A stretch of DNA of 64,000 nt from Trissonchulus latispiculum. Its lineage: Eukaryota; Nematoda; Enoplea; Enoplida; Ironidae. The notes beneath the pieces are model-generated. The model did no database searches. It was not told where the DNA came from and saw only the letters and a program-made list of their open reading frames with translations. Shown here piece by piece: positions 21,342 through 60,469 of this stretch. The number at the start of each line of letters is the position of its first letter. Position 1 is the stretch's first letter. The translations under genes were made by a program, and so were the position numbers. The stretch is taken from positions 1-64,000 of the forward strand of contig JASAND010028703.1 of the NCBI GenBank assembly GCA_030248195.1. Direction: 5' to 3'.

Positions 21342-21387
21342 TCACTTTTCGAAACTCACGAAGAACGTCCAAACTAGAGCTTAATCC

Positions 21388-21660: not shown

Positions 21661-21757
<97 letters not shown>

Positions 21758-25497: not shown

Positions 25498-27855
25498 TGT
25501 GGAATTATGAAATTCTCAGTAAATAATTTGATTTCTCAGTAAAGATTAAAGGTTCGATCTAGAGTGTGTAACATGTCTGATTCTATCCCCACTTAATCGC
25601 TAACCTAAATTAAAATAAACGACACGCCCTAATTTACACGGATTTACTTTCGCAAAAACACCAAAACGCAAACAGGTTCAAAACAAACAATAATCCAAAT
25701 TTGACATAATTTTACCAAACCAGACTCAAACAAAATAAAAGAACTTGGACAAGCACAGAGCTGAATCTACAAAGTTATTAAAGCAATGTGACAAACCGTA
25801 GATCCCCAGCAGACACGTGGGTGTGACCCCAAAATAGTTCCCCCAAAAGACTCCCAAACCAGGCTGGAGAATTGTAGTAGCAAGGATGACGCTCAAAACC
25901 ACCGGCTGTAATGAAGTTTGAAAAACCAGAATGAATAAAATTGTAATCAAAATGGCGGCGAAGATGTATTAGCTATGTACGGCGTTGGACCGTACACAGC
26001 AGTCAAATTTAGATTGATTTTTGATGAAGTTAGCACTCACTTTTGAATAATTTAGGGTAAAATCAAGGAAATATTCTACAGATTACCCCCTCTTTTGAAA
26101 CGCGCGCCCTCGCCGCGGCCCCCAGGCACATAGGTTAGTAATAAAATTTGCGTTAGCCTACGTACCTTAGCTACTAGTAGAGGTAAAAAGCGTTTTAGAA
26201 AAATGGGAAAAATGATGAAAATTTTTCGTATCCCTCGGGGACGTCTTCCCGGGGACACTACTCGGGCCCCACACTTATACACATACTAGGGGATTCCGAG
26301 ACACGGGTAAAACTACGCCGGAACATACCGGGGGTACATTCAACATATAACGGACTTTGCCGACATACAAATACAAAGAAAAGTGGGACAAGCCCTTCAG
26401 CCGCGACTAGAGCGCACACTACAAAACAGGACATAATCCGAAGATATAAATTTATAATATAATATATAGAAATGATATAAACAAAAGCGAGTGCCAACAG
26501 AAGCGCTCGAAAAAAGAGTAGAAAATTTTTGTATTGAAATGTAGAAATAAAGAGAGATTCACATATATAAATTCAAATCTTATAGGGGGAAGGCAGCAGA
26601 CTCTAGGGGAGACTCAATTTCAAATGCTCCCAAGGAGCGAAATAAATCAGAAAGGAGAGTGTTTCAAACTCAAAAGGGCGGTCTCTCCTGAGCACCTGCC
26701 TGCCCCAACATACAAAAATATACTAGAATCTTTACTAAATGCCAAGAATTATAAAGCACAAAAAATAAATCAAACGTTGGCATAGCTGCTTGAAGTAGAC
26801 ATGGCAAATATAAGGCAAAAAATAATGGCAGTATATGTAGAAAATTTTGAATTAAAGTAAACCCGTGACTATTTTTAGAAAGAAAAGTGAAGCAAACACC
26901 ATGTTAAGAGAAACAAGAAGACCCGAAAATGATTAAGCAAAATGGAATAACATACGACACATTTAGAACAGCCAAACTGAGCTAGAGGGAACCCATGAGA
27001 AAAGAATATCTCAGAAATATGAAAGATAGAAGAAACAGAATTTTAATAGAAATTTATGGAATGTTTTAATTCAGGAGAAGAAACCCACGACAATGACCAA
27101 ATGTGGACCCCACCCAACCATGGTTAATGCTAAATCTGTAAAGGACATAAGAATATAAACAGTGAAATAATTGGTTAGCAAAGAGGGAAAGGGGGAGGGG
27201 GGACGGACGAGGTAAAGGGAAATACAACCGGGTTCATAACAGACATCACAAAGTTGACTTAAAATAGTTCAAACAATCATAGATAACTCCAGGCTGCGGG
27301 AGAGATTTCCAATTCCAAGCACCTCGGGAAAAATCCCATGCCATATCACCGGACCGAGACCTCCGGACCACTGGGCGGATGCCCCTCGGCATCAAGCGCC
27401 CGCTCAACCAGGACCAACGCCGCCAGCCTTCCAAATGCCAAACCAGGCCCGTCCAAACACCAGATGTAACCATAGGGGACGACCCGTATCACACATAGGG
27501 GAAATACAGTAGCAACAAACAAACAGTACAACAGGGGAACGCTCGCCGTCAAGAGGGACAGGGGGGGAGGGAAGGGGACAGTAAGTATAATACAGAACAA
27601 GCAAACAAAAATGGAATAATATACGGCATGTTTATATATGGATAAGCATATAGGCATGATGCCTAACAGTGACAAACAAAAATAGTTGGGCAAAAGCCCG
27701 CAATGCATATATATGAGGCCCGATTAATTTAGAGAGTGTAGGCAGAAACCGACGGAACCGTTATCTTCCCTATGGGGAAAACGCAGGCACCGTAGGAGAC
27801 GCCAAATCAGAGAAAGCGGAAAATAAAACTCAAGACTCAAAATTGCCGGTCCGGG
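25498..27855 (-). repeat. LTR, left (3' LTR of the minus-strand element)
   Basis: Matches 35116-37491. Differences include an 18-bp tandem duplication (ACTCGGGCCCCACACTT region, near 35880) present only in the right copy, and a few substitutions. The left edge is TG, as expected for the complement of an LTR end. The true outer limit of the U3 end may lie beyond 27855, because the comparison stops where the right copy stops. Open frames inside (e.g. 27346-27708) are repeated in both LTRs but have no recognisable domain. Confidence 0.9.
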
Positions 27856-29949
27856 GCTGACCGCCCACCATTACCTTCCCTATGGGGATAGCGCAGGCGA
27901 CGAGCAGCCACGAACCCGCCGAGGTGCGGCACGGTGTTTTAGATATCCCAGTACTATTGCTTACATACAGATAAAAAGCATTAAATGACAAAATTCAAAA
28001 TATGAGACGACCAACCAAATAAATAGATTCACAGAAGTATATTTTATCTTGAAAGGTATTTAAAATTGCAGTTCAATACAATTAAGTGAATGAGAAGAAG
28101 CAATTTGCAACTTTTATCCAATAGAGGGAACAATTATTTTGATTTATTAAATCAACGATGGAAAAATTTAATCGTGAAAGAAGGTTACAAAAGTTTATAT
28201 TCAAGAAATAACCATGCAAACTGTTAAAGGTGCTACGAGGAAAGGAAAAGTGAAAAATTTAAACATGCAAGTTCCCTTTTAATAAAATGAGCATTTCAAG
28301 AAATTTTACTTTTATCCAAAATTTATAGAACGACATGAAAAACGAAGACTCTAAGAAAGCTAATTTGGAATTAATTAAGTTAATTCTGGCTTTAGCGTAC
28401 TAGAAGCGTCTGTTCTAAGATAGTAAAAAGCATCATAACCTACAACAAATTGAATTAGAAACTTCCTCCCCAAACCCATGCGGCATAAACATAATAGTCG
28501 TGTTCTTTTTGAAGAATTTTCTCAAAGTCGAGCAAAAATATTTTTAAATAATAGCAAATATTTTTTAAAGTAAACAAAAATTTTAGAATCCCCACCATTT
28601 AAACAATACAAAAGAACAGAAGACATATACCACAATCAGGGGACCGGTGCCAGGAACCCAAGAGAGTAGGAACCTAAAACATAAAACAAAAATAATAAGT
28701 CACAAAATTAATAAAATTATAGGTTAAAACTAGAGGATAATTAAAGCAGCGTTAATAGGTGTACGTGTTTACACAACATGCCTAATCGCAGCACGTGCCT
28801 GACAGACCGGTGGACGGAGTGAACATTGAGCTTGTGCCGAGGTCGGCACAGTAAAACCAGGTGAACAAAATGCAGGGTAAAAGTGAGAAACGGCCTAGGT
28901 CAAGATTTACTGGACCAAAATTGTTCACATTACGATTTTGTAAAATGGCATGTATAGGGTTTCCTGCACACAAAGTTGTAGCCACCCCAGTCCAGTTTCA
29001 TTTTCGACTGTGCCGACCTCGGCACAAAATTTTAAACCTTTTTAGAGACATAGAATTGCTAACAATAAACATCTAAGTGGGCCCCCACAGCGTTCACCCG
29101 TTGTATTACCATGCAAATTTCGATTGGAAGTTGATTAAGTCCTGAACCGACCTAGGCGCCATGGTCGGCCCAAGGGAACACTTCTTGGAAAACAGACATG
29201 AAGATAGACTCATACTTTTAAGAACCCCCCTGTAAAAATAAAATAAATATATCACTTGAAGTAACAAATTTTACCCCTGCCCGGTCCTAAAACGCGTCGG
29301 GCCGTTTGCAACCGGCCCAGCGCGCTCTATCCAAGCATAATAGCAATTCAAAAATTTTTACCAATGCAATCGAAAACTTATGCTAATCCGGGTGGGATCC
29401 GTGAACTTTTGACTCCGTAGAAGACTGTCCATTGCCACCTGCCAACCCGCTGGAAAGAACTGAATGAAAGGCGGAGGAACTTGTACCTGAAATTAAATCA
29501 AAAGTGAAATTTTTTGCACGTGTGATGTGACACTGCGACCAGGCAGCTGTGCGTAAAATGAGGACAAAACATCTACAGTGAAAGTGTGAAGTTGAAAATA
29601 TAAAGTGCCGGTTTAAAATGGGTAGCGAAACCTATAAACCTAAAACTAATAAGAGGCAATAATACTAGGGATATAAAATACAAAATATAGAAATACCTGA
29701 GATTTGTGTACGTACATAAGTACGAAAGACTACATTTTAGAATTTTTAAAGAAGATTATTTAAATCGAATTGAAAAATAAATCCTATAAATTTGAATCAA
29801 ACGAAAAGTAAAAACAAAACGCCTTAAAGAATTTCTTTCAAGAAATATTTTGAAAAAGGACTTTCAAAAAATTAACCGGGCCAAACAAACGACATATTAA
29901 TCATCGGGGTTTACCCCCTCTTTCGAAAATTAACTTGGGACAGGGAGGG
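27856..29949 (-). other. Non-coding internal tract of the LTR element
   Basis: Occupies the place where pol would be expected. It has no reverse transcriptase, RNase H or integrase signature on either strand. A repeat of the LTR phrase TTCCCTATGGGG with GCGCAGGC lies at about 27871-27898. An inverted-repeat pair is at 28831-29031. A polypyrimidine motif TACCCCCTCTTT near 29911 (also near 26084 and 29996) reads as a purine tract on the coding strand and is a candidate polypurine tract. Confidence 0.6.
28831..29031. repeat. Inverted repeat of palindromes
   Basis: TGTGCCGAGGTCGGCACA near 28832 is itself a hairpin (TGTGCCGA/TCGGCACA). Its exact reverse complement occurs near 29011. With flanking bases the inverted match reaches about 21 bp. 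The unit of about 200 bp could be a small inverted-repeat insertion inside the retroelement. Confidence 0.7.
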
Positions 29950-30641
29950 TTAGACTAAATGACTATGAGTTGTAGGAGTTAATGGAGGGGTGTCTACCCC
30001 CTCTTTTGAAATTTCAAGATGCAGGCCTTCTTGTCGGACCCCGGACGGCAAGGGAGGTGGGGGCCGAGCCCCCAAGGATGGAAGTGTCCCCACATTTGTA
30101 TACATCACCGCAGGCGCATCGGCACACCAATTTGCAAAAACTTCCGAGCGAATTTCGTCTGATGACAATAATGGATGGTGTATTCCTTGCATGTTTACTT
30201 CATTAGTAGAAAATAACAAGTCCCAGTGAAAACGTTTCATGAAATCAGTTCCTATTAAAATCTCACGAGAAAAGTTAGGAACCATATGAAAAAACCACCC
30301 ATATTCTTTACGCCCCACCGTGAAAATTATAAAAACTTTGGCAGTAATGTTTAACGGCGTGTCGTTAGATGCCACTGCGGTGATGGGATCCTTTTTCTGA
30401 AATCGAACATTGGCGCCCCCTTCAATATTCTCTTAACTGTCCGGGGACTGACAATGGATATTGCTGCTCCGGAATCAATAATAGTCAAAATTTTAGTCCC
30501 CCCGGAGGTGACGACTATGGCTGGGATACTATCTGCTGCTACCGGTACTGGCTCGGATTCAATTTCGGTGGGCCCTCCCGGCGTTACTGCATCTGATGTT
30601 AGATCTTCTAGTTGGGGTTTTTCAAGCTCCTGCGGTGCCAT
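29950..30641 (-). pseudogene. Retropepsin (aspartic protease) remnant
   Basis: Retropepsins cleave the Gag-Pol polyprotein. The upstream frame (30641 down to 30351) contains the catalytic-type motif DSG (residues 56-58) within ILTIIDSGAAISIVSP. The downstream frame (30375 down to 29950) contains ILIGTDF (residues 39-45), corresponding to the hydrophobic-Gly motif near the C-terminus of the domain. The two frames differ by one base, and the change falls at a G-run (30410-30421, CCCCC on the plus strand). The gene is broken as assembled, although a sequencing error in the homopolymer could mimic this. It lies directly after gag in the element. Confidence 0.85.
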
Positions 30642-30670
30642 TGGACTGACAGCTTCCTCAGTTTCTGTCC

Positions 30671-31726
30671 CTACAGAAACATGTTCGGGCCGGTGGCTTT
30701 AATGGGAGAAAACCCCGCGGTCCAAGAGGGAGGTGATTGTTTTTCGACAAATGAAATAGAGTCGTATTCTGACTGATTTGGACATAGACACTTTAGTAAA
30801 GTTGCCATTTCCTGCATTTGATTTAAAAGAACGTGATAATATTCTTGCATAAAATCAAAAGTATCCCTTTGTATAGCCCACAAGGTAGTAAAATTATGAA
30901 CCACGTTTGAAAAAACATTTGACAATTGTGCCTCTATCATAGTTAAATCAAATTGTGGAGAATTTGATGAAGCGAGTGACTCAGGCGGGTCGGAGCCAAA
31001 TACGGTAGGGTCCACCCCCCCTTTTGAAGCTTCGCCACCAGCCAGATCAGAAACCACCCCGACTTGAAATTGAGTCAGAATTTGATGAACTTGTTCGGCA
31101 GTAGCTCCATGTGAAGCCGGAGCCGCCCTCCTAGGAGCAGAACGTGCAGCAGGAGCTGAAACCCCCGAATCCGAGGTTCGTACAAAATTTTGAGAGAGTT
31201 CCGGAACACCTGCATTTTGGATGTGTACTGTACGTTGGTATGGGGCCGGGGTTGTAGTAGTCGGAGCTGAAATTGGCTTTGGTTGAGAATTTTGTCCTCC
31301 CATATAGCCAACCTGATTTCCCAAGTTTGATGGGTGTGGGAGGGCCGGAGCAGGAGCAGAAAATTGTACTGGGGTCGGGTTGGGAGGTAGGGGGGCGTAC
31401 TGTGACAAAAAAGAAACCGGGGCATAATTTATGGGGGGATATTGCTGCTGGTATGCCGGTAATCCAAGATATTGAACGGGGTAATTATTTGATGAGTGGG
31501 CCACATGATCAACCCTCTCAGGTGGGGGACGGTTTTTATAATTTGGGGGGGCCTTTGAGGGGTATCGTTCCCAACAATTTTCCGGTGCGTGACCGCTTTT
31601 TTTACAGTATTTACACGGGGGCTTTTTCTGTTTTTCTTCCTCCCACTTACTCAAGGCTTCCTGGATATGTTGTTCAAACCAATCTTTTAATTCACGAAAA
31701 CCCAGGCGAGCAGCTGCCACCTCCAA
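30671..31726 (-). pseudogene. Gag C-terminal part with zinc knuckle
   Basis: A 351-codon frame beginning at a TTG that is an internal continuation of gag rather than a start. Residues 38-51 form a CX2CX4HX4C zinc knuckle (C38, C41, H46, C51), the nucleic-acid-binding motif of Gag nucleocapsid proteins. It is preceded by a charged helical segment and followed by a long Pro/Gln/Tyr-rich linker. The frame changes relative to the capsid part near 31765-31780 (runs of A) and relative to the protease near 30690. Product broken as assembled. Confidence 0.85.
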
Positions 31727-32571
31727 ATTAGACTGGGAAGTAGAATCTGAACTTTTTGAGAACTGGCTTTTTTTGTCGGTGCCCCCATCTTCAACGTAAC
31801 TGGCAGGTCATAGGAGAGAGTGTCTCCCTCCGGTGGGCGGGCCTCCCGAGACTCTAAACGATCAATGACCCGACGGACATCTTGCATAGTGGGTCGCTCA
31901 TGGAGAAAAAGAGAAGCCAAAGCTGAAGCAAATTTATCGTGCACCCCCGCAAAAAGTTGTTGAACACATTCTTGTTCACGCTCCTCCCGCGTATCCCACA
32001 GGTCGAGGGCCATAGCCTGTAATTCTGAAATATAGTGTCGAGCGGACTCGTTGTGAAGTTGCTTTCGGTGTGCAAAAGCCGATTGCCGCTCCCGCAACGA
32101 GAGTTGTGGTTTTGGAAATTGCGATTTGATTAAATCCAAAAATCCTGAATAGGACTCGACGACCTGTGGGCCACAGCGAGAAGCAAAAATTTGGGCTTTC
32201 CCCGTTAATTTATTCCAAAGGAGGCGCCCCCACTGCTCCTGAGGCACTGCATGAACTGCCACTGCCGACTCAAATTGGGGTAACCAATCCTCGAAATATG
32301 CGTACTTGGGGTCATACCGGGGGACATCCCGTAAAACTTCCAAATAATACCGAAAAAGACTCGTGTCAAATTTTGGGACCGAAATATCGGTAGCTTCCAT
32401 AGTGGTAGGGGTTGGGTGTCGCGGACTTTTAGGGATTCCCGGTTTTTTACCCACATTATTGACTGAATAATTTGAATGGGTACCCACAGATGAGGGAGGC
32501 TCCGAAAATTTTGAAGGAGGAGGTGAATTTGAATTTTGTTTGGAAGGTGGAGGGGGAGGTGGTGACTGTTC
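31687..32571 (-). pseudogene. Gag capsid-like domain
   Basis: The frame that continues past a TGA at 32572-32574 encodes a retrotransposon Gag-type domain. It has a tryptophan-rich start (YFEDWLPQFESAV), then WGRLLWNKLTGKAQ, a central FLDLIKSQF segment and a C-terminal helical part with REEREQECVQQLFAGV. This matches the order seen in Ty3/gypsy gag (retrotrans_gag family). The TGA separating it from the upstream part is consistent with CGA to TGA at a CpG. The last about 25 residues before 31687 are out of frame. Confidence 0.8.
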
Positions 32572-35087
32572 TCAAGCCGGATTCGGCTGGGCAGGCGCCG
32601 AAGGAGGCCCCGCGACAAAATCGTGCTGTACTGAGGGCGAACCTCCCGAAGAAGGGGCGCCCCCAGCAGGAACCAACGCTACACCTTTACCTTCCCTTAG
32701 GGAAAGCGCGGGTGTGCGCTGCTCTTGCTGCCGCGGAACTTCAGTAGGTCCTGCAAGGCAATTTTCTGAAACGTAGTCAGCCGCACAAGCATGCGAGGCC
32801 ACCATCTCCGCCATATAATAGGGGTTATTGGGGACCTGTTGTGGTAGACGTGGAGGGACTTGTAATGGGGGCAAATTTTGTTGGGACCCCTCCCACAAAT
32901 TATTATTATCCAGTTCACGAATTACTGGATTTTCGAAAATTTGTTGCTCCAGACGGTCATAATTAAAATTTACTGGAGTACGTATAAAATATTGACCTTC
33001 TGGATATTGGGAAGTTGGGGGCTGGTAGCGTAATTGTGGCAGTTGCTGCTGCATATGGGGCTCCGGGGCTGCCATTTGAATACCTTCGTACAAATGTTGG
33101 CCGTAGGACCCCGGATGGACAGGGTAATAGCGTGGATCCCCTTGGTTCAAAAAATTTTGGTTGGCCAATTTTTTTGGGGAGGCCAATGGTGGATTTTGAG
33201 ATGTAGGAGGGGGAATTTGCAAAGGTGGAGAGGGAGGAGGCTGAGTATGATACAAAGGTGGAGCAGAGGGGCCCCCATGACAAATTGGGGTTTTCTGAAT
33301 TTGAACATGGGAAGGGGCAATCTGTTGATTTGGTAGCAAATTTCCGTGCTGGTCCCGGGGAAAAACGATCCCACCAGTATGAGAAGGACGGGGCATTTGA
33401 GTTGCAGACCCGCTTACATACGTATTTTGGAAATTTTGTGAAGTTTGAAAATTTTGGGAATTTTGAAAATTTTGAGAATTTTGAAAATTTTCCCCAGAAT
33501 AAACAGGTCGGGGTAAATACGTAGATAGGGGAGGTATGGGGTCCCCTCCAGTTTGGATCAAAACCACAGAATTTTGGCTGCAAGCAGAATCATACACAGA
33601 TCCTGGTTCGGAATCACCCGAATTAGGGGGAGGTTGGCCACCCGCCACTGGAATTTGAGCAGGTTGAAAAACCCCAGGGTTTTAGGGGGGGGGGCGCCCC
33701 CCCACCTGCCTGTTCAGAAGAAAAACCCACATTATTTCGGAAATTTGCAGGATTTTGCGGTATTCTTGACTGAGAATACGTATTTAAAGAAGGGACAGGT
33801 GATTTCTGGGGGGCTTCCCCCGAGCCCAACAAGGCCGAAACTACTTCTTTAGCTGCCTTTGCAGCGTCAAACCGGGGAGAGATAAATTCGTCAAAATCAC
33901 GTCGAAAATTCGAATTTTCTGAATGTTGGGGGGTAGTGGGATTTTCTACAGGGTGGGGAGTAATTTGTGAGGGTGCAGAGACTGGCCCCCCAATCGTTTT
34001 TACCCGGGTCTCCCGCTGGTCCAGTGTATAATTCTGCTGCAAATTTTGGGGAGGGACAACCCTTGTGGATTGGGGGGAGCGCAAATTTGATAGGTGTAAC
34101 TCAGTGGGCCCCCCCAAGTATTTTGTAAAGCACCAGAAAAATTAAAATTACTGCTGGAGGTTTTCCCTGTGGGCAAAATTTCTCCAGCAGTAAAATTACG
34201 TCTGGTGCGAGGGGGGGTAGGAGGGCGGACACCCCCCCGAAAAATTGTAGGTGAAGGGACTGAATTTTGGGGGAGCCGATTTTCCGAATTTTCGGGGTGG
34301 GGGAGGTTTTGATTTTGGGGGTGGAGCGGCTCCACCTGCAAAGAATCACATTCAGAAACTGGGGGAGGAGACGAAATCAGAACTTGGGGGGGTGCAGATT
34401 GGGGAATCTGCAAACTGAAATGGGGTGGATTATTTGAAAAATTCTGGGGAGAATTTGATGAATTTTGGGGGAGAGTCTGTGAATTTTGAGGGGGGTTCTG
34501 GAAATTTTGAGGAGAATTCATAAAATTTTGGGGGAGATTCTGAGAATTGTGGGGGAGATTTTGCAAATTTTGGGGGGGATTTTGCAAATTTTGGGGGGGA
34601 TTTTGTAAATTTTGGGGGGGATTTTGTAAATTTTGGGGGGATTTTGTCCCCCCAACACGTCCACTGAGGTACACCTAGGCACACCTAAAGCATTATCCAA
34701 CCCCCCAACAGCCCCAGAAATTTGGGGGAGGTAAGAAAAATTTTGGGGGAGATCGTTAGAATTCTGGGGGGGATTCTGGGAATTTTGGGAAAAATTTTGA
34801 AAATTTTGGGGGAGACTCTGTCCCCCCACTTCCCCTACAGACAACCGTACAGGTGCCCCCAAACTGGCACCTGAACCCCCAGCAACCCCAAAATTTTGGG
34901 GGGTTTGAGAACCCCCCAACTCTGTTCCCCCCAAATTTGGTGACCGTCGTTTTTGGAAAAATTGTTGATGTAAAAAACTGTCAGAATTTTCGGGTGCTTG
35001 CCCGCTGGGTAATTCGGAAAAAAGTCGGGCAGTGCCGTCACGTAATTTTTTTAGGTAGCGAGTAAGCCGGGGGGAAGAATCAGACAT
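32572..35087 (-). pseudogene. Gag N-terminal region, Asn/Gln/Pro-rich, multiply frameshifted
   Basis: It starts with ATG at 35085-35087, 25 bp after the primer-binding site, and reads MSDSSPRLTRYLKKLRDG. The frame then moves through segments 35087-34518, 34674-34000, 34117-33623 and 33648-32572, each overlapping the next, as expected for one ancestral gene broken by single-base indels. The product is low-complexity: a PPQNLQN-type heptad repeated about a dozen times (34430-34680) and a shorter SQNFQN repeat (33425-33495). This resembles disordered Asn/Gln-rich prion-like segments. Several breaks fall at G/C homopolymers. Confidence 0.8.
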
Positions 35088-35094
35088 ATTTACT

Positions 35095-35115
35095 CCAAAG
35101 TTACGGTCGCCAGTT
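35095..35115 (-). promoter_or_regulatory. Primer-binding site of the LTR element
   Basis: Directly after the LTR end and a 3-nt spacer, the minus strand reads TGGCGACCGTAACTTTGG. A TGG start is expected for pairing to a tRNA CCA 3' end. The tRNA identity is not determined. Confidence 0.75.
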
Positions 35116-37491
35116 TGTCGAATATAGAAATATTCGGTAAATAATTTGATTTCTCAGTAAAGATTAAAGGTTCGATCTAGAGTGTGTAACATGTCTGATT
35201 CTATCCCCACTTAATCGCTAACCTAAATTAAAATAAACGACACGCCCTAATTTACACGGATTTACTTTCGCAAAAACACCAAAACGCAAACAGGTTCAAA
35301 ACAAACAATAATCCAAATTTGACATAATTTTACCAAACCAGACTCAAACAAAATAAAAGAACTTGGACAAGCACAGAGCTGAATCTACAAAGTTATTAAA
35401 GCAATGTGACAAACCGTAGATCCCCAGCAGACACGTGGGTGTGACCCCAAAATAGTTCCCCCAAAAGACTCCCAAACCAGGCTGGAGAATTGTAGTAGCA
35501 AGGATGACGCTCAAAACCACCGGCTGTAATGAAGTTTGAAAAACCAGAATGAATAAAATTGTAATCAAAATGGCGGCGAAGATGTATTAGCTATGTACGG
35601 CGTTGGACCGTACACAGCAGTCAAATTTAGATTGATTTTTGATGAAGTTAGCACTCACTTTTGAATAATTTAGGGTAAAATCAAGGAAATATTCTACAGA
35701 TTACCCCCTCTTTTGAAACGCGCGCCCTCGCCGCGGCCCCCAGGCACATAGGTTAGTAATAAAATTTGCGTTAGCCTACGTACCTTAGCTACTAGTAGAG
35801 GTAAAAAGCGTTTTAGAAAAATGGGAAAAATGATGAAAATTTTTCGTATCCCTCGGGGACGTCTTCCCGGGGACACTACTCGGGCCCCACACTTTACTCG
35901 GGCCCCACACTTATATACATACTAGGGGATTCCGAGACACGGGTAAAACTACGCCGGAACATACCGGGGGTACATTCAACATATAACGGACTTTGCCGAC
36001 ATACAAATACAAAGAAAAGTGGGACAAGCCCTTCAGCCGCGACTAGAGCGCACACTACAAAACAGGACATAATCCGAAGATATAAATTTATAATATAATA
36101 TATAGAAATGATATAAACAAAAGCGAGTACCAACAGAAGCGCTCGAAAAAAGAGTAGAAAATTTTTGTATTGAAATGTAGAAATAAAGAGAGATTCACAT
36201 ATATAAATTCAAATCTTATAGGGGGAAGGCAGCAGACTCTAGGGGAGACTCAATTTCAAATGCTCCCAAGGAGCGAAATAAATCAGAAAGGAGAGTGTTT
36301 CAAACTCAAAAGGGCGGTCTCTCCTGAGCACCTGCCTGCCCCAACATACAAAAATATACTAGAATCTTTACTAAATGCCAAGAATTATAAAGCACAAAAA
36401 ATAAATCAAACGTTGGCATAGCTGCTTGAAGTAGACATGGCAAATATAAGGCAAAAAATAATGGCAGTATATGTAGAAAATTTTGAATTAAAGTAAACCC
36501 GTGACTATTTTTAGAAAGAAAAGTGAAGCAAACACCATGTTAAGAGAAACAAGAAGACCCGAAAATGATTAAGCAAAATGGAATAACATACGACACATAT
36601 AGAACAGCCAAACTGAGCTAGAGGGAACCCATGAGAAAAGAATATCTCAGAAATATGAAAGATAGAAGAAACAGAATTTTAATAGAAATTTATGGAATGT
36701 TTTAATTCAGGAGAAGAAACCCACGACAATGACCAAATGTGGACCCCACCCAACCATGGTTAATGCTAAATCTGTAAAGGACATAAGAATATAAACAGTG
36801 AAATAATTGGTTAGCAAAGAGGGAAAGGGGGAGGGGGGACGGACGAGGTAAAGGGAAATACAACCGGGTTCATAACAGACATCACAAAGTTGACTTAAAA
36901 TAGTTCAAACAATCATAGATAACTCCAGGCTGCGGGAGAGATTTCCAATTCCAAGCACCTCGGGAAAAATCCCATGCCATATCACCGGACCGAGACCTCC
37001 GGACCACTGGGCGGATGCCCCTCGGCATCAAGCGCCCGCTCAACCAGGACCAACGCCGCCAGCCTTCCAAATGCCAAACCAGGCCCGTCCAAACACCAGA
37101 TGTAACCATAGGGGACGACCCGTATCACACATAGGGGAAATACAGTAGCAACAAACAAACAGTACAACAGGGGAACGCTCGCCGTCAAGAGGGACAGGGG
37201 GGGAGGGAAGGGGACAGTAAGTATAATACAGAACAAGCAAACAAAAATGGAATAATATACGGCATGTTTATATATGGATAAGCATATAGGCATGATGCCT
37301 AACAGTGACAAACAAAAATAGTTGGGCAAAAGCCCGCAATGCATATATATGAGGCCCGATTAATTTAGAGAGTGTAGGCAGAAACCGACGGAACCGTTAT
37401 CTTCCCTATGGGGAAAACGCAGGCACCGTAGGAGACGCCAAATCAGAGAAAGCGGAAAATAAAACTCAAGAGTCAAAATTGCCGGTCCGGG
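35116..37491 (-). repeat. LTR, right (5' LTR of the minus-strand element)
   Basis: Matches 25498-27855 apart from an extra 18-bp duplication near 35880, a few substitutions, and a strongly different first 21 bases at the inner edge (35116-35136). The right end is abrupt: homology with the left LTR stops at CCGGTCCGGG (37482-37491) and segment A' starts at the next base. Confidence 0.9.
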
Positions 37492-37537
37492 TCACTTTTC
37501 GAAACTCACGAAGAACGCCCAAACTAGAGCTTAATCC

Positions 37538-37810
37538 GGAATTCACAGAGTTGGTCGTGGGCCGCGGGAACCCGCGGGGCTGGGCGGGTATTGCCAAATT
37601 TCAATATCCGCACTACCTGCGCGGGAATTTGTGCGGGCCTAACCTAAAAATTTTAACTATTTTTGTCTATAACTAAGTGAAATTTACTAGTTAAACAGAA
37701 CATACTGCATTTGTATTTTCACCTCTAATTTAGTTATGAAAGTTTTCTGAACTGTAATAGTGCGTTTGTGCTGCTTTGCTTAACAGAGCGGACCAGTCAT
37801 TTCCGCACGA

Positions 37811-37867
<57 letters not shown>

Positions 37868-38617
37868 ATATATATGTTTCAGATGAAAAATGGCCACTAC
37901 GCACGAAGGCCAATATAGGCACAGGAACAGCTCCAACGGAACCAAGAACGGGAACATGAATAAGGAACAAAACAGCTTTTTGAAAAAGGAGCGGAAGCCT
38001 CATTTTAGGATCAGGGGCAAAAACTGGGTTCTGACAAGAACAGAAACGGAGACCTATTTTTCGGAAAGAAATTCATTTTTAGGAGCAGGACCGAAAACAG
38101 ATGTTTCTTAGCAGCAACCACAACTCCAGTTTTATTTCAGTTATAGGAACGGGAGTCTAATGTCAAACAGGGTCTATTTTACACCCATAATTTCCAGCTT
38201 TAAGCATATTGGAGCTTGCGGGTGGTCGGTCAATGTATAAAAATCTTATTTGTTAAACTAAATCCGCATTAAGAAAAGTCATAGTGAGATTACATACAAG
38301 GTAATATCAAAGCAGGCCACAAAGAAATGATGATTTTTATTTTTCATTTATCTGTTTTAATTTTCAAAAAATCTAATGCACTGTTTGCTTACAACGCATT
38401 TTTACGATTGCTTCAGAGTATATTTCCCACTTAGAAAGTTAACGATAAAACAGATTTACCTAATAAAATGAAAATTGCGGGTAAAATTGAGTTTTCCACA
38501 TGAGCGGGGCGAAAAAATTTTGCGGGTATCTTGCGGGTATCACTTGTCTGCGGGCCACGGGCCGCGGGGCGGCGGCGGGTAGCAAAAATCCGGCACGCGA
38601 CCAACTCTGGGAATTCC
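37538..38617. mobile_element. hAT-like non-autonomous element, right copy
   Basis: Same element as 21388-22507: body 37546-38609 and right target duplication GGAATTCC at 38610-38617. The left target copy reads GGAATTCA, one base changed. It lies only about 50 bp inside the start of A'. Confidence 0.85.
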
Positions 38618-39210
38618 TGAATTCTAAAATTCCTGAATTCTGGGAATTCGATGCTTTGCTAGACACAGACGTTGGTTCTAATACAAGATTTGTTCAGCTA
38701 ATTAAGAGCTCATATTTATATTGTACGGAATTGGAGAATATTTTTAGTATCCGAAAAATCCGGTTTAATTAATTTAATTTAATTCAATCCGATCTTTTCT
38801 TGGCTCAAAATTTTCCAGACCGTGTAGCGCACTTCTGGAGTGCGTTGGGTCCCGGATCCCCCTGTTATAGCTCGGGGTATTTGTTCTTCTGCTAGAGCAG
38901 GTGTGCCTCAAAGAGTGTTTTTATTCTTTAAAAGCCCAGCTTAAAGCTGAACCCACAGCTTCAACACAGGCACAGCGTAGTGTAGAATTCGTTGAACTTT
39001 GTTACTTATACAAATAAGATTGACTTTATTTCAAGCGGCAGCACTTCGAATGTCTTCGAATGTCCGTAATTCTCCGATCAGTAATTCCGCTAATTATATT
39101 TTTTGCAGGTTTTGCTAAGGTATGTATGATACGTAAAGTGTTCTAATTTCATAAAGTATTGTCATCCAGTCTAGCCGATATGACCGGATGCCTGTTACCA
39201 ATGAACTTAC

Positions 39211-39353
39211 CAGATACACAGCAAACCCTATGATTGCAGTTATCACTGGAGATTGAAGAAGACCCATGACAGCAAACCAACTGGTAACAATGTAGAAATA
39301 TAGGAATCTGAGAGCGCAAGCGTAGCGGACTGCTTTGACGAACTGATACAGCT
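39211..39353 (-). CDS. Candidate exon encoding membrane segments, right copy
   Basis: Identical to 23101-23243, including the GTAAGT donor. See that entry. If A and A' are alleles, this is the same exon twice. Confidence 0.4.
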
Positions 39354-40376
39354 CTGCATCGGTCAAAGCTTAAATACCAGTTCTGTTGGCAACCAAAACT
39401 GGTGGATCAGTAGTAAATCACTGGCCGGGTCACTACAGTAACTACAGCTCCATTTATCACACTCTGAAATTATGGTTGCTTACAACGATGTACCTGGATC
39501 GAAATGTTTAAGCTAGTAATCACTGTTTCTCCAAGCTTGCATATTCAGTCAATTCATTGAAACGCAAAACGGCTAAAGCTTTGCAGAATTATTGATGACT
39601 AACAGCTAGCTGGAATTCTTTTAAAATAAAACATAAATCAAAGGCTTAGTAACCAATTAACATAATCTGTCTGTAGATATGATTAACCACAAAGAATATG
39701 CTAAACTTGCTGCCGTCATTTGTTTTATCCTATTGTTTCGTTGAGGGGGATAACCAACTTCTGGGCAGATCAATCGTGACTTGGAAAAGCTGACTAAGTA
39801 GTTTAACAAATAATTAACTCAATTCAAGTTTGGTGCATTGGAGCAACAATACATGACATGACAAATAATGGGCTGAAGTGCGCGATTATTGCCTAGTGAG
39901 TCCTATTGTTTTCAGTACCATCATGTACATACCATCCTGTCTGCTACTACTTAGAAGTTGGCCAGAACGATGTTACGAGCAGGTACTAGTCTAGCTGGGG
40001 CTTCTGTTGCGTCCAGGTTTACTGGACCAAGAGTACATAATACGTAAGAGTATGACAAGCGTCATAGGCTATGTGTAGTGCTACGGGTAAAATTAAAAGA
40101 CTGAAGTTTGGGTTAATTTAGGCTCCAAAAGCTTGCACTGGTAAGCACTGGTTTTACACTGAAAGTTGAAAAGACTGAGAGGTTACCGGGGTCGGTGGCA
40201 CCCTGTTCTCAGCAACACACACTCTAATTTCAAAGCACTAACAGCAGTAGCGAACAGACGAGACGACTCGGTCGACTCTTAGATCCTTCGGACTAAGCAG
40301 CCTGGTTTTGGTCTACCCAATCCGGGATTTGTCCGCGTTAGGTCGTGAGTTCGATTCCTCTAGGCTCCGTTTCCGT

Positions 40377-40748
40377 TCAAGGCCAATACACGTCTAGTGA
40401 ACAACTGTCGTGTTCCACAGATGCCCACAGATCAGTACCTTCTGGAATCAGACAGAAGATCAAAACCTCTTGCTCAGTACAACTATCACACTTCCAGGGG
40501 AAATATTTGGGCACAAAGTTCTCGGTGCCTGGAATTGCCTCGTAACCTCCCTCAACAATCTGGTCTACGTTCCAAGGGCGTAGACAGCCGCAAACTACAA
40601 TAGGATGAACTAAACCAAGGGTTTCTTCGCTCAAGTACTGGAATGCCTCTAGCTCAAAACTAACAGTCAACTCTGTACCACAATGCTCGCACTCTAATTC
40701 ACAGTGAGATAATACCGGCACAAACTCTGCCAGCGTGATATAAGCCAA
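40377..40748 (-). CDS. Cysteine-containing hypothetical protein or exon, right copy
   Basis: Same 123-codon frame as 24267-24638 with two CxxC pairs; no disruptions. A single A-to-T difference lies just outside the frame near 40783. See the left copy for discussion. Confidence 0.4.
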   Translation of the reverse strand: MAYITLAEFVPVLSHCELECEHCGTELTVSFELEAFQYLSEETLGLVHPIVVCGCLRPWNVDQIVEGGYEAIPGTENFVPKYFPWKCDSCTEQEVLIFCLIPEGTDLWASVEHDSCSLDVYWP

Positions 40749-41607
40749 GTCCTAACTAACGTCCTAAGCAAGACTGAACTGATACCTAACTAAATCCTAA
40801 GATCCTAGCAGAATGAACCACAGAACCTATAAATTTTAGGATTTAATTTACAACAGTTATGTGCAGACGAAGAGATTAAGAGTTACAGACCGTAGGTAAT
40901 ACAAGTAAGTAGGTACAGCTTATCAATTATTACTGACTGTGCAGAATAACAAAAATTACCAGGACAATCAGAACAGAGTACAAAATACAAACTAATACAA
41001 GAGCAGATACAGTAACTTAATCCAACCACAAACACACAGTCAAGACACAGTTGATTATTAAGTCCTAAGGCTCGTACCTAGTTATTTGAACCAAACTTTT
41101 GAAGGATTGGACCTAGACCTATATAATGACCTAAACCTAACCAGCAGTCTGATGTACAAATTAATCCCTGAATAAACCTTAACGTAGAAACTTTAACCTA
41201 CTGACTTCTAGCTAGAACCTGAAACCTATGAAAATTTCGAATGAATTGATTATAGATCGCAAGTCTGGTACAGCTTCTGAACGCTGGATCACTATATTCT
41301 GTTTCCTAACTATAAGGTATCGAGGGGGTCCGCCTATATGCTTGAGGTGTCCTATGTGCTTTTATTTTAAACGAAACAATCAATATTGCGCGGATTTCCA
41401 CCCTTTCCCGGGCACTAGATATTAGTCCTGATATTAGATAACCAGAAGCTAATATCCTACTTCCTGCCTAAGGAAGCGGCCAGAGGTCAATTCGCACGTT
41501 TTTGAGAAGTTTGTCAGGATTTTAGATTTCCCCGAAAGTTTCAAGTCAATCAAAGAAATTTTCAACAAGAACAACGAAAACCGAAAGAGAGACAAAAATT
41601 GAGACAA

Positions 41608-42284
41608 TACATTTCAATTAAGAGTTCAAGAGTTTTAGATCAATCTTCTATATGAAGTTTCTGGGTCCCCAACTCCAAACCACAACCGAAACTTTGGTAG
41701 CCTTGAAACAGGCTCTCAGGGCCGAGAAGCTGCAGAATTTCGCTAAGGACAGCTGTTGATGATCGGTCAGTCGTCTGGTCAAGGGAGCAAGCCTCAACCA
41801 GGGGGGATCGGCAGTGCACTGAGAAGCTGAGCTGTACTGTTGAAGTGGGTGTCGGATAAATCACTAGTGAAGACAAGTTCCTGGCAAAGGGTATCGGATA
41901 AATCACCCTGTGTAGTCAAGATCCAAGGTCAGTGCACTCAGTCCAGCCCTGGCAGACTGTTTATCCCGATAAAAAGAAAGTTACTAGTTTTGGTAGAAGC
42001 ACCTTAGGTTCCGAGACCACTGGATGAAAGAGAAGAGCAGAGAATCCGGGGGATCCACAAGGGAACTCACACCGGTGAGACAGAGATAATTGAGACTGAG
42101 GATCCGGGTCCAAGGGAAGCAAGGAGGACTGGTGAGCAGCAGACGGAGAAGGGGCGGCACGGCAGGCAAGATCCACTGATTGAGCAGCGACGATCAGCAG
42201 GCAGGGCCAGGCAGAGAGAGAGACTGTGATTCAGGAAGGCAAAGGCAGGGCTTGAGCGCAACCTGAATCAAATGGGTTAAAACC
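41608..42284. other. Right flank of the insertion, no gene recognised
   Basis: Contains the direct repeat TCGGATAAATCAC (about 41852 and 41893), two AGTGCACT palindromes (about 41813 and 41931) and a 5-bp hairpin CTCAC/GTGAG (about 42065-42078). Minus-strand frames at 41640-42261 have no recognised domain. Confidence 0.5.
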
Positions 42285-43455
42285 GTTAGGATCTTTCAGA
42301 GAAAGATCCTAACACGATATTTCCTGGGTCCAGGAATGATCCCCAAGAAGCTGAGACGTAAAGTTTGAAAAGTGCGTGAAATTATGTAAAAGTTTAAGAG
42401 TGCGTTCTGTGGTTAGAAATTGAGAAAATTTGCGTGGAAAGTGAAATTTGAGGACTTTTGGGAGAGTTCCCAAAAGTCCAAGCTTCTCAGTGGATTTCCT
42501 TTCGGAAATCCACGCGACCCAGGTAATATCTGAACAGATATTACGAATCAGAATCATTTACAGACAATAAATAAAATGGTCTAATTTAAAGGAGAATTCT
42601 CAGGGGGTATTTTAGAAAAGGACCTCTGGGTCCTGTAAAAATCTCAGAAGCGATTCCCAGAAAAGGAGGGAAATCGCCTTTAAAAAACTAGATAATTGAA
42701 AGAAAAGAAAGGGGGGAAAACCTAAGGTGGGATGTAAACCTAAACCCCCCTTCAAATCTAAAGAACCCCAGAAAATTGACGAGGGGCTAGTGTTAATACA
42801 CTAGCCCCGTTCTGGTGTGGGGGGGAAAATTTGGGCATAGTAACGCCCTATAGTAGAACAAACTAGGGGGAGTGAAGGGAAGTGAAGTGAAGTGAAGGCC
42901 AAAAGCGGCCGTACACGACGAGAGACAAGGTAAGACTGAGGTGCAAAGCAAGTCTACCTGTCAATCACGACAATTTCGGCAATCATTCGTTTGATTGGCC
43001 AAAATTGTCCTCCGCGCAAAAAGGCGCGCACTAAATGATTCTGATTGGGTCAAATTAGTTGTAATCATAACGTGATTTTTGGCAGGCTCTGAAGTGTTTA
43101 CACAAGCGGGGAAAGGGCAATTAAACTAATCCCTTTCCCCTATTGTAAAATTAAGAGAACGATAAAATTAGGAATAACACTTAAGGCAAACGCACTCAGG
43201 CGAGAAATTGACACTACGTCAATTTCTCGCCAAAAGAGAAGAACAAGACGCAACACCTTTCTAAAACCTGGACCAGAGGGTCCCCTTAACTAAGACTTAG
43301 TGACTGCTGATTAGGTAGGTATAATTAATTAAAACTAATAGGTACGAGTCTCTTACAGAATACAATACAAAAATACAAACAATTAAGTAGCTAAGACATG
43401 AATTAAAATTAAAAACTTTCATTAAACTTTTATCAGTTCCCCTCTTTGCTTTTGC

Positions 43456-43485
43456 CTTTGAGTCTCAGCCGAGCTGGACTCAAAG
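43456..43485 (+). other. Bulged CGA-triloop hairpin 1
   Basis: Outer stem CTTTGAGTC/GACTCAAAG (9 bp), single bulged T on the 5' side, inner stem CAGC/GCTG, loop CGA. Confidence 0.85.
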
Positions 43486-43649
43486 AGCGGAGAATTTGTA
43501 CAGTTACAAAAGTATCACATCTGTTACTCCAAATTGGCAATAAGGGAAGACATAAAAGTCTTCCCTTAAATTACAAAACCAAAACTTACAAAAGAGAAAA
43601 ACTTGAAAAGAATTCCACACTAGCTAAGCAAAACTAGTTAAGTTCAGTG

Positions 43650-43673
43650 AAAGGGCAAGCCGAGCTTCCCTTT
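43650..43673 (+). other. Bulged CGA-triloop hairpin 2
   Basis: Outer stem AAAGGG/CCCTTT (6 bp), single bulged C on the 5' side, inner stem AAGC/GCTT, loop CGA. Same architecture as 43456-43485 with different stem bases. Confidence 0.85.
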
Positions 43674-43830
43674 TGCTTTAAAACCAATAAAAACCAGCTT
43701 AATTAAACTTTAAACTTAATTAACTTAACTTTCATTAATTAATTAGCTAGAATATGGATTAACTTAATTAAACGTAAACTTTAATTAAGCTTAAAAGGCA
43801 GATTAAACTACTAATGATCGCAATACTTGA

Positions 43831-43850
43831 GGGACGAGCCGAGCTCTCCC
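43831..43850 (+). other. Bulged CGA-triloop hairpin 3
   Basis: Outer stem GGGA/TCCC (4 bp), single bulged C on the 5' side, inner stem GAGC/GCTC, loop CGA. Same architecture as the previous two. Confidence 0.8.
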
Positions 43851-44959
43851 AGTTGGGTCAGAAAATCGAGTCTGCTGCAAAATCGAACCAAAGAAGCACC
43901 AATTATTTGGGCTTATTTTAAAGAGGAAGACCTGCTGATTTTATTAAATAAAAGTTTTAACCTAATTATTGATGTCAATTAACATGAAACTTTAATTAGA
44001 AACACTGTGACCAACCAAATCTGGAGGCTAACTTGAACTTCAGTATGTGGCTTGTAAATCAGCTTGTAAAATGAAAACGAACCACAGAAACTGTAAATAT
44101 TTTTAGATATTCTGAAAGAGCAAAGCTTGCTGGTTTTAATGATATAAGAATTATACTAATTAATAATGTTAATTAACGAGTAATTAAGCGAAAACCGCTG
44201 ATAATGACAAAACTTGAAAGTGACTTTGTAATCTCCGTATGAAGTTTGAAAATGGCTTGTAAAATTAAAACGAACCACAGAATGGGTTGTTTATCTTTCA
44301 TAAATCGTATGAGTAGGTCTTGATCTATTCAGATATAACAAACCTTGATTGCATTTCGACATACAGTGAGCGAACACTGGCCTTTTTTCCTGACCATGCT
44401 GGGTTGTTTTGGCCATAGTTGCAGAATCCCTTTAATTAACTTAAATTAATGAGTGGACCGTGCTCTGCACTAATCATTGACAGTCGTTCTACACCTGCCA
44501 ATCCGCGTGGCGAGCGGCACCTAACGGGCCTCTACCTAGCTGTCTCGCAACAGCATAATTAGTAAAAGTTAACTGCCAGCTCGAAACAACCCAACTTGAG
44601 CTTGAAACTTCATTACTGTTAATTTTCGCAATTAATTCATGTCTTAGCTATGGCAATAATTAAAGATACAAGGACAGTGGCAATCAGACACATTCATTCC
44701 ATAGATTCCATTCCGTTTTCCAGCAGAACCCAAGATCGAAACTCTATAAGAAACCAAAACTGTTCATCACATATTTAGCCTTTTAGTTTATTTTGGAAGC
44801 CGCTTATTACTCGGATAGATTGTGCAAAGACGTCGTTTTTTGGGCATGTCGTGTCCTAAATTGCGTTCCTTGGTTGGCACGCCGGCCGATTTGGATTGAA
44901 ATACAAATATGATGTTTTATTGAACAAATCCACATGACAAAATATTCATTTTTATTACA
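43851..44959. repeat. Imperfect duplication of about 190 bp, otherwise non-coding
   Basis: The phrase GGCTTGTAAA, then AAAACGAACCACAGAA, occurs near 44048-44097 and again near 44255-44283. A TTAATTAA-rich stretch precedes each. The remainder (44290-44959) shows no gene. Confidence 0.55.
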
Positions 44960-45188
44960 TATGTATTATCAGCTCGCTACATCGGCTGTCCCCCCATAAA
45001 TTGACAAAGAAATCCGCCCCTATGTTTGCACACAACAGACGCACTTTGAACCAACGGACTAGTTGTGTTTTTGAGCTTTAGCATGCAAGTATAGCAATCG
45101 AATTTCCTTTGATAAGGGGGGGGCTGATTTATGGAGGGGGGGGGTAAGCCGATAGCGTGTAGAGGATGTAGCGAGCTGATAATACATA
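44960..45188. mobile_element. Small inverted-repeat element (MITE)
   Basis: TTATCAGCTCGCTACATC at 44966-44983 is repeated perfectly in reverse complement ending at 45182. The flanks TATGTA and TACATA extend the palindrome and could include a TA target duplication. Inner parts also pair (GGCT, CCCCCC and ATAAAT blocks). At 217 bp with no coding capacity, it is a typical MITE. Confidence 0.85.
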
Positions 45189-45260
45189 GCGTATGACGCT
45201 GGTCATACTCTTATATATTATGTACTCTTGACTGGACTTGATTCGCAACGGCCGGCCTTT
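45187..45260 (-). repeat. Dispersed repeat shared with segment A
   Basis: The reverse complement matches about 23895-23964 (and the A' equivalent): TATGACGC, GTCATACTCTTA, TATTATGTACTCTTG and GCAACG are shared with substitutions. Origin unknown. Confidence 0.65.
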
Positions 45261-46110
45261 GGCTTAGCAGCAAGTATGAAGGAATGTTGGTAAAGCTTTC
45301 CAAATCTCAAAAAACTTGGCAATTGAGGCTACCCAGGCATCGCTCATTAGTATTCAAGTATTCAAAAACTTTTTAAACTTAGCAATCTGTGTCCCTAAAG
45401 TGTCATATTTGCCCGGTGGTGTGTTACTACCTTCTCAAGATAGTCCCAGTTTCTTTTGTAATTGTCAATGGCCAGAAACCACTGCATTAGGCTCATCCTA
45501 AAGCTAGCCAGCTAGCTAGATTTTTAACAGCTATTTCTCTAATGGCAAACTCAATGGATTAAAGATAACTCGTTTAACCCGCGGATTAACCAACCTCGGC
45601 ATGATCGGATTAACTACATAATTTTAATCCTTTTAATCCGTTTAATGCAAGATTAAAGAAACAGCTATACTAACGTTTTAATCTAGCAGATATTTTTAAT
45701 CCGTTCAATGTTACTACTTTAATCTATAAATCCAAGAGTAAGCCAAAGATATGATATACTATTTGTAATATTCAAATGAACTGCAGTTAAGATTTATTTT
45801 GGATCGATTGCGGTTTTCGCCAAGCCTTAACAGTTTAGATTTCTTATCAATGACTTGGGGGCATGCTAGAGCATGCTCAGCTCAGTCTTTTTCTTTTTTC
45901 AATCCCTGTCTCTCAAAACTTCAAAGTCATAAAAAAGTTGCAATGAAGCTGCGGGAGGATCAATTTGATACATATACTAGCTCAATTTTGGATGTTCTTC
46001 AAGAAAAAGAAGACTACTAAAATCTTGTATCGGTTAAACAGATACTTATTCAGAACGGGTGGCAATAAATAGGTGGCAGCGTTTGTCACCTGAGACAGTC
46101 ACTTACTTAC
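45261..46110. other. No gene recognised
   Basis: Contains TTTAATCCG-type phrases repeated at 45545-45720 (a degenerate tandem motif) and an open frame at 45799-46020 without recognisable domain. Confidence 0.4.
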
Positions 46111-58422: not shown

Positions 58423-60469
58423 GGTCTAATTTGTTGGGTGAGTCTGTCATTATCAAGCGCACGGCCGAATAGCTAAGAGTGTGACTAATGACATGACAGA
58501 GTTAGCTAGCTGGAGATACCTAACATTTAGTTGTACTGTATCAAAATGATGGGCCAAAAACCTCAAACTGTCTTCAAACAATGCTAACGCAGTACTAGCT
58601 TAAACTTGGAGAACCGTCCACACATGAAAAATTTTGGCAGCCCAATGTATTAAACTAATTGAGATCCCAGGAGCTGAAACTTAGTGTAGCCACAATAGCC
58701 ATAGACTCCAAAACCAGTAAATTTGTACAACCTTGACAAATAAACAAAACATTTCTACCCCCCCCCCTCCAAATTATTCCTGAAACAAACCCCAATCAAA
58801 TACCTAAACAGTCAGAAAAAGGCCTTAACGCCCAACACAGGAAATACATAATCACTGTACAGGAAAAGTTTGATCATTATCAATAAGAAACAGTAACTTT
58901 TGAATAAATCAATTATAAGCACTGTAGTTAAGCTCTAAAAGGTCATCTTGCGCAACATGAAAAGGGGAATGGAAAGAAAATAGTGGACACGGGTAATAAA
59001 AACGAAACACTTCGGACTCGTGAAGGTGAGAGTATACTCTTCACAACCGAACACGAAGAGAAATCAAACTTGCAACAAGGTGCAGCACCGAGCAAATCGG
59101 CCAATGAGGTTAACAAAATGGCACTTATAAGATTTTTGATTGGCTCATAGATTTGCCGTCTTAGACTATTTAGCTGATATATTTATAGAAATATAGAGAG
59201 AAGTTCTAAACTTAAGAGCGCCGCCTTGGGACGAGGATGGCTGATAAAGCGATCCCGGCAAGCCGCGATCCCTCCTTCTAACATTGTTACTGATACTGTT
59301 ACTTCTAACTGATAATTTCGACATAGTTTAACAACGATTTCATTTATCGCAAACAAACCATCTTGTAAGAGATGATCTCACCTCAACATATATAAGCCCA
59401 TATTAAATTATACATACCCCACTTAGGCCAAACATAATGTCTCCGCATTACAAAGAGCCAGCCAAAAACCAACGATCAAGTATGTTTGATTAAATGTTTA
59501 CTCATGCCAAACGTAAAACCAAGTCAAAACAGGATGCATACTGATTTCAAAAGAGCGCGGCATTAATTCTTAATTTCGCAGCATAAGAACCTAGAGACAG
59601 GCATATAATTTATGTAGCGTCATTCAAATTGCTTGTTATGTAGCAAAGTAAGGAATTCCGCATGTATGGCCTGCGGAATTCATTAATTAAACCGGTCAGT
59701 CCAGCTTAATTAATGAATTTCGCAGACCAGACTTGCCGAGTTCATTAATGTCAGAATATCGCGTTCTTGACCTTATCGTGAGCATGGTGCTCCGATCACA
59801 ATACACGAGCGTTCTCCCGTTCGGTGTGGGGGGTCGGCAACAATAGCGGGGCAACTAAAACAGCGATTGTTCTGCGACCCCCTCAACCGGAACCCATAAA
59901 CTGAAACGACCGCAATCTTTTGCTCTGCTCCTCCAACCAACTTTGAGGGGGGTCTCTGCAATCTGATTGGTTTTTGGTTTTTGGCTAGCCCAATTAAAAG
60001 GGAACCTGCTTTGGCTCCCCCGTCGACCCTCCACCAAACGGGGGACACAAGGGTATTGTGTTCGGAGCACCATTTTGCAATGTACTGAAGAGAAGTCCTC
60101 TAATGGCTTTCTCTGCTTCTTATGTATAGTGCAGTATGTACTCTTGCTAATATTCTTATTTCAACTTTTTAATAAATTTTTTAGTTTTATAGATAGAAGT
60201 TTTGGACAACCCTATGGAAACTACTGAAATCGCTCGAATGCGCAGAGCCATCATGCAGGACGATAGTAAGCACACTCTTAAAAAATTCCAGTAGAAACTA
60301 CAAGAATAACTTTAGTAGATACTAAGTACGAAACGTTTTGTAGAAAAAAGCTTAGATCTTGTGATTTTTGCAGGACATCGCTGGTAGTTCTTATTGGAGA
60401 TACTTGTGCACAATGTATTAAGTTATGATGTTATGTCATGTCATGATCATTCATGACACTAGGGGAAGT
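58423..60469. other. No gene recognised; one strong hairpin
   Basis: Contains two hairpins near 59650-59725: GAATTCCGC/GCGGAATTC, and AATTCATTAATTAA with TTAATTAATGAATT (14 bp). The right part of the stretch (59940-60125) is the dispersed repeat also seen near 52.0 kb. Otherwise nothing is supportable. Confidence 0.5.

Follow-up and report, generated by a model that had tools for sequence, protein, structure and literature searches.

We find that the dense series of hairpins at positions 42285-43850 belongs to the interior of a 4.9-kb long terminal repeat (LTR), and not to a host locus. By the window we mean the whole stretch of 64,000 nucleotides that was analyzed, and the window copy of this repeat is a solo LTR. 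We hold with high confidence that the tract is a nucleic-acid fold under selection, because its stems are conserved among copies and because two related LTR families keep the order of the hairpins and a long-range helix with changed letters. There is good reason to think that the folded molecule is RNA rather than DNA. And, leaving its function aside, a selected RNA fold within the LTR is a likely reading of the whole.

Counting perfect, non-overlapping stems of at least 8 bp with loops of 2-15 nt, there are 11 in the tract, to be compared with a mean of 0.43 and a maximum of 4 in 1000 dinucleotide shuffles of the same region. At 10 bp or more the tract has 9 stems (shuffle mean 0.03, maximum 1), and at 11 bp or more it has 5 (mean 0.01, maximum 1). 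These shuffles rule out a chance origin. An earlier sequence-only reading of this DNA had estimated that fewer than one stem of 8 bp or more would arise by chance, and had named dinucleotide shuffling as a check; the shuffled controls do not match the tract. The four stems that it gave as examples (42285-42313, 42452-42479, 43199-43231, and 42783-42808) are all there. Its count of about sixteen hairpins holds when bulged and near-perfect stems are included, and not for perfect ones. Its statement that the stems share no sequence is right for most of them, and wrong for three hairpins that have a common tip.

The excess of stems is local. Per kilobase, stems of at least 10 bp number 5 at 42001 and 4 at 43001, and no more than 2 in every other kilobase of the window. 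With stems counted as for the tract, the flanking stretches 41610-42284 and 43851-45416 have none of at least 8 bp, and two further control stretches have 2 and 1, none of them of 9 bp. The predicted fold is strong on both strands: with 20 shuffles per fold, z is -12.7 (plus) and -13.7 (minus) for 42270-43060, and for 43061-43870 it is -6.9 (plus) and -5.4 (minus). In 200-nt windows the excess is patchy within the tract (z from -0.8 to -6.7), and AT repeats and one inverted repeat elsewhere in the window have a fold z equal to or below that of the tract.

The architecture includes a helix that is absent from the sequence-only reading. P3 is a perfect long-range helix of 15 bp, in which 42546-42560 pairs with 43032-43046, and its arms are 471 nt apart; a long-range pairing of 15 bp was reached in 2 of 1000 shuffles of 42285-43850. 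Helix P1 (5 bp) is flush with the 3′ arm of P3, and on the opposite side H5 is inserted, so that a three-way junction results. Three of the hairpins have the tip NAGC-CGA-GCTN in common, and in each a single pyrimidine bulges out 4 bp below the triloop; the exact occurrences of AGCCGAGCT in the window are these three CGA hairpins only. Table 1 collects the features.

Table 1. Positions of the tract, its helices, and the surrounding LTR features in the window. Fractions out of 30 refer to aligned copies; L166, L167, and L168 are the related LTRs discussed below.
Feature	Positions	Strand	Remarks
Solo LTR, 4886 bp, TG...CA ends	40074..44959	minus	sharp ends common to copies
Cys-rich open frame, 124 aa, no ATG	40380..40751	minus	within LTR
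Sense poly(A) signal AATAAA	41361..41366	minus	in low-divergence block
Conserved box at tract edge	42261..42284	minus	24/24 identical in L168; present in L166, L167
Hairpin tract	42285..43850	minus	LTR sense position about 1110 to 2675
H1, 13 bp	42285..42313		all pairs Watson-Crick in 27/30
H3, 12 bp	42452..42479		complete 23/30; counterpart with other letters in L166, L167
H4, 10 bp	42490..42513		complete 25/30; compensated-stem counterparts in L166, L167
Outer helix P1, 5 bp	42516..43051 (42516-42520 with 43047-43051)		complete 28/30
H5	42523..42544		outer 9 pairs complete 28/30; compensated counterpart in L166
Long-range helix P3, 15 bp	42546..43046		complete 26/30
H9, 11 bp	42783..42808		complete 22/30
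H13	42969..43009		outer 8 pairs complete 26/30; shorter CAATCATC-stem counterpart in L166, L167
H16, 14 bp in window	43199..43231		13 inner pairs complete 26/30; all 14 in 2/30
Bulged CGA hairpin 1, bulge T43465	43456..43485		tip 28/30, bulge 30/30
H19, 11 bp	43541..43568		complete 24/30
Bulged CGA hairpin 2, bulge C43656	43650..43673		tip 27/30, bulge C 29/30
Bulged CGA hairpin 3, bulge C43835	43831..43850		tip 29/30, bulge 30/30
Degenerate tandem repeat, unit about 193 bp	43880..44341		adjoins tract

The sequence-only reading had also raised the question of whether the genome holds other such tracts, and it does. In the 734-Mb genome (21,732 contigs, in which the window contig is labelled C19464), the tract has at least 41 matching rows elsewhere at 85-91% identity. 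Once split copies are joined and five short self-inverted rows are excluded, there are at least 39 further places among the best 40 of 512 candidates scored. Copies on many contigs rule out an assembly artefact.

To follow the fold across copies, we use an alignment of 30, the window plus 29 other loci out of the 39 further places, in which 21 local stems are tracked, bulged and near-perfect ones included. Divergence is 13.4% in linkers, 7.4% in loops, and 4.2% at stem sites, this last figure omitting 42898-42911, 42604-42769 with 42611-42762, and 42809-42859, and retaining the weak helices 42709-42752, 43013-43028, and 43696-43791. Stem sites are thus about threefold less divergent than linkers. 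Sites with a second letter in at least 3 of the 30 copies amount to 5.1% in stems, 12.3% in loops, and 26.5% in linkers. When the ten perfect window hairpins are the sole stem mask, divergence is 3.5% versus 11.2%; when this mask is shifted circularly, 1 of the 1565 shifts gives as large a contrast. And the pairing depends on register, as 89.7% of the cells are paired in register versus 21-39% when slid by 1-3.

Of the local stems scored over their whole length, H1, H3, H4, H9, H18, and H19 pair completely in 22-27 of the 30 copies. The low whole-stem figure for H16 is due to its outermost pair, which is G.T in most copies. The CGA hairpins keep their bulges in 29-30 and their tips in 27-29 copies. 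Among the weak helices, 42604-42769 with 42611-42762, 42809-42859, 42709-42752, and 43013-43028 are poorly kept. A candidate helix, 42324-42331 with 42516-42523, which resembles a helix of L166, is complete in none of the 30 copies and was dropped. The proposal that tandem units of 190 bp contain all the hairpins did not hold outside about 43.4-44.3 kb; for the tandem repeat at 43880..44341, the number of units seems to differ among copies, judging from overlapping matches.

The repeat that carries the tract has ends, at 40074 and 44959, that were placed by comparing flanks, and TATG stands immediately outside both. In copy C19823 the target duplication is CATA on either side; copy C7718 is flanked by CATA and CATG, an imperfect target duplication; and in three further copies shown the ends were unreadable. 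Contig C11175 has two copies in one orientation, with 13.5 kb between the matched parts and a gag gene in between. The near copy is followed, in sense, by an open gag frame of 959 aa, in which a zinc knuckle can be seen by eye and which PF03732 matches weakly (E 0.0054, short of the curated cut-off). Starting 11 nt after the LTR end (L158), a stretch that begins with TGG is like a primer-binding site (PBS), and by eye it resembles a tRNA 3′ end. Because this PBS-like stretch and gag adjoin the C11175 copy, the repeat is an LTR that reads in sense along the minus strand of the window. Besides gag, L158 has no frame of at least 180 aa, and no pol was seen there. A reverse transcriptase and RNase H frame lies about 1.1 kb past the LTR end of one copy (L164) and may belong to that element. 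The parent is a gag-bearing LTR retrotransposon, probably of the Ty3/gypsy kind.

The sequence-only reading had described a nuclear-looking tract beside a retroelement insertion. There is indeed a junction, at 41608, where a second retroelement broke into this LTR; the tract itself, on the other hand, is part of another retroelement. The second LTR retroelement occupies about 25498-37493 on the minus strand, with LTRs of about 2.4 kb and gag-protease-like frames; no pol frame was seen in it. It is flanked by a 4.16-kb direct repeat (21342-25497 and 37492-41608) that is 98.8% identical, the same value as for its LTR pair, and which looks like a giant duplication made upon insertion, judging from the sequence. 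The first 22 bp of its two LTRs (25498-25520 and 35116-35138) differ at several places, and each of the differing starts can form its own small hairpin. Protein searches found no homologue for parts of this element or for a frame at 63 kb. Elsewhere in the window we observe a satellite array at 6661-11144 (main period 286 bp, about 13 copies), an inverted repeat element at 44961-45187 that adjoins the right end of the solo LTR, and an inverted repeat at 59649-59747 with a strong fold (z -6.8).

A protein-coding tract was rejected: in the standard code there is no stop-to-stop frame of at least 100 aa within 42285-43850, and if TGA is taken as W, the longest frame that reaches into the tract has 142 aa. 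No Rfam family is found in the tract at gathering score, and the best match in 41600-44700 (searched with E up to 5) has E 0.39 and scores 16.6 bits, where the gathering score is 69. A phage origin was also rejected, with one 52-base match only, at E 0.5.

The LTR does hold a 124-aa frame that appears to be constrained, with dS of 0.42-0.55 and dN of 0.03-0.05 against three copies. Of 8 flank stretches upstream of copies, 6 give a tblastn match to it, one of these matches being partial and another containing a stop; L158 and L160 give none, and in L167 part of the frame is matched at 35%. A protein search found no homologue. From its sequence, it may be a protein exon on the U5 side of the LTR under strong constraint.

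Sequence variation across the part of the LTR that is covered changes at the tract edge. In bins of 75 bp, 24 sequences (six of the 29 other loci omitted for short or cut matches) differ pairwise by 8-46% on average, mostly above 22%, at 40.79-42.29 kb, and by 2-20% at 42.29-44.96 kb. The conserved box marks the border between these high- and low-divergence parts, with its 22-mer exact in at least 20 of the 24 aligned copies. We also observe that the box is kept in four LTR families, with sense end ATTCAG after TTTTAACCC; going by its letters, it might be a 3′ splice site, perhaps together with a branch point, or some other signal. The AATAAA at 41361 is present in at least 19 of the 24 aligned copies, counting the six commonest strings, and there is no conserved TATA box at 41120 in these copies. 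The tract is upstream of the likely transcript end, and therefore lies in U3, that is, in the 3′ UTR, or in R if the start is upstream of the tract. Given the conserved poly(A) signal after the tract, it is most likely 3′ UTR (U3) RNA.

Within the window family the stems are nearly invariant, and so offer scant covariation. The conservation described above could partly stem from sequence signals rather than from pairing, a question on which relatives bear. There are many relatives by gag, at 39-54% identity among the best 48 of 1737 candidates scored, and for three of them, L166, L167, and L168, we took the LTR sequence that adjoins gag. Both L166 and L167 have hairpins like H3, H4, H5, and H13 in the order of the window; the other hairpins were not found in either. 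At the place of P3 both have a 12-bp helix of unrelated sequence whose arms, 472 nt apart, come just after H5 and directly after H13. The clearly compensated changes with respect to the window are in H4 and H5, and they rest on three families, that of the window and the two relatives; the L167 counterpart of H5 has one T.T mismatch. L168 has the box and shows none of the hairpins of the domain; none of the three relatives shows the CGA hairpins.

L166 and L167 are 75.6% identical to each other. When their alignment is folded, z goes as low as -9.8 for the sense strand and -6.1 for its complement, and the weakest windows (-1.2 in sense, -0.6 on plus) are no better than control. For eight helices, hand-chosen out of 15, site identity is 94.6% versus 73.3% elsewhere, and only 5 pairs are changed on both sides. 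The L166 LTR recurs in the genome at 39 further places with 86-100% identity, five of them at 99-100%, and on account of those five the family looks recently active. As a side observation, L151:5465-5545, in the flank of another copy, matches the region around the L168 box at 78%, and by that match there may be another LTR of the L168 family there.

The sequence-only reading had proposed that such perfect pairing implies either selection for structure or a mechanism such as template switching. Selection is upheld by stems some three times less divergent than linkers and by two relatives that keep the architecture; recent switching is not, given dozens of copies and a 471-nt helix. If template switching during DNA synthesis wrote the hairpins, they would be neutral, or kept perfect by repeated switching. 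The almost perfect stems would suit such an origin, and switching can create and mend hairpins (PMC8794818). Yet the stems are common to dozens of copies and less divergent than loops and linkers, the fixed bulges of the CGA hairpins would vanish under copying of one arm from the other, and the long-range helix is not local. We regard this explanation as very unlikely; ancient template switching may have helped to make or mend the stems. Chance or an assembly artefact can be practically dismissed, in view of the shuffle counts and the further places in the genome.

With selection on a fold, one can still ask which molecule folds, and where in the transcript. The structure could be one of DNA, with cruciforms or folds of single-stranded cDNA used for integration, for escape from silencing, or by a DNA-bound protein. 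An RNA fold should favour one kind of wobble. The stems are nearly without wobble pairs, and the wobble states that exist lack strand preference (A.C in 9 cells and G.T in 7 for L166/L167, and in the window family shared states of either kind), which speaks for a DNA structure. But a three-way junction closed over 471 nt and short loops are typical of RNA, and the tract, being upstream of a conserved poly(A) signal, should be transcribed. The sense loop of H4, GAAA in 29 of 30 copies, and the higher fold score of the sense alignment also lean to RNA, and specifically to the sense strand. We consider a DNA-level structure improbable. Alternatively, the start could lie upstream of the tract, which would then be within R, therefore present at both RNA ends, and could serve in a 5′ leader for translation start or as a packaging signal. 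A constrained open frame and gag do lie downstream in sense, and conserved stem-loops occur in long retroviral R regions (PMC3601003); however, the R required here would be very long, more than 2.3 kb to the poly(A) signal, and we judge a leader role unlikely.

For a selected RNA fold in U3, we can propose how it might work. The giant LTR of a many-copy element would encode a large RNA with a conserved fold, the tract being its core, and the molecule that folds would be the sense genomic RNA. A full-length transcript ending at the conserved poly(A) signal would carry the tract near its 3′ end, where it would most likely act in cis as a post-transcriptional element, either in nuclear export, in RNA stability, or in packaging. 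Candidate docking sites for a protein are the three bulged CGA hairpins. Export or stability would be our tentative guess for the function; packaging or assembly looks rather unlikely, and a role in translation more unlikely still. By analogy, a conserved non-coding 3′ region with repeated hairpins of one design would fit a control or packaging domain of the CTE, RTE, or WPRE kind. It is possible, although we have our doubts, that the LTRs of an abundant retrotransposon lineage carry a new class of conserved structural RNA, very large at 500 nt or more and perhaps as long as 1.6 kb, with a topology that outlasts its sequence and repeated bulged CGA-triloop hairpins that dock an export or packaging protein. 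If true, one genome would offer, in its copies, a natural series of mutants of a very large retroelement RNA. There would be a reason for some LTRs being giant, and the function of the LTR interior would become testable. And a dense nuclear hairpin tract could be a selected part of a retrotransposon, not necessarily the product of template switching.

We found no description of such an LTR domain by title, in a literature of partial coverage. Very long LTRs and very large size are also found in Ogre of plants, Ty3/gypsy-like with LTRs of 1.9-6.5 kb, and in Burro of planarians (PMC6431247); the likeness is in LTRs of several kb, and the accessible part of that source mentions no hairpin tract for them. 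Dense hairpins in non-coding DNA are known from the organelle genomes of Volvox (PMC2670323), where they are repeated palindromic elements, whereas here mostly unrelated stems are fixed within a nuclear LTR. Retroviral R-region stem-loops likewise conserve LTR sequence (PMC3601003); here, in contrast, the stems are numerous and, together with a long-range junction, extend across 1.6 kb ahead of the poly(A) signal. There is also a likeness, with no sequence link seen, to the known RNA export elements of retroviruses and related elements: CTE, RTE, MTE, WPRE, and the MER11-derived element are multi-stem-loop RNAs near a 3′ end (PMC11379458, PMC1363727). As an example, the MER11-derived element of SERV-K is LTR-derived, with a predicted series of stem loops and transport activity (PMC11379458). 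Compared with these elements, the tract is longer, sits inside the LTR itself, and has a topology common to families whose sequence has turned over, and for the tract export would be a prediction.
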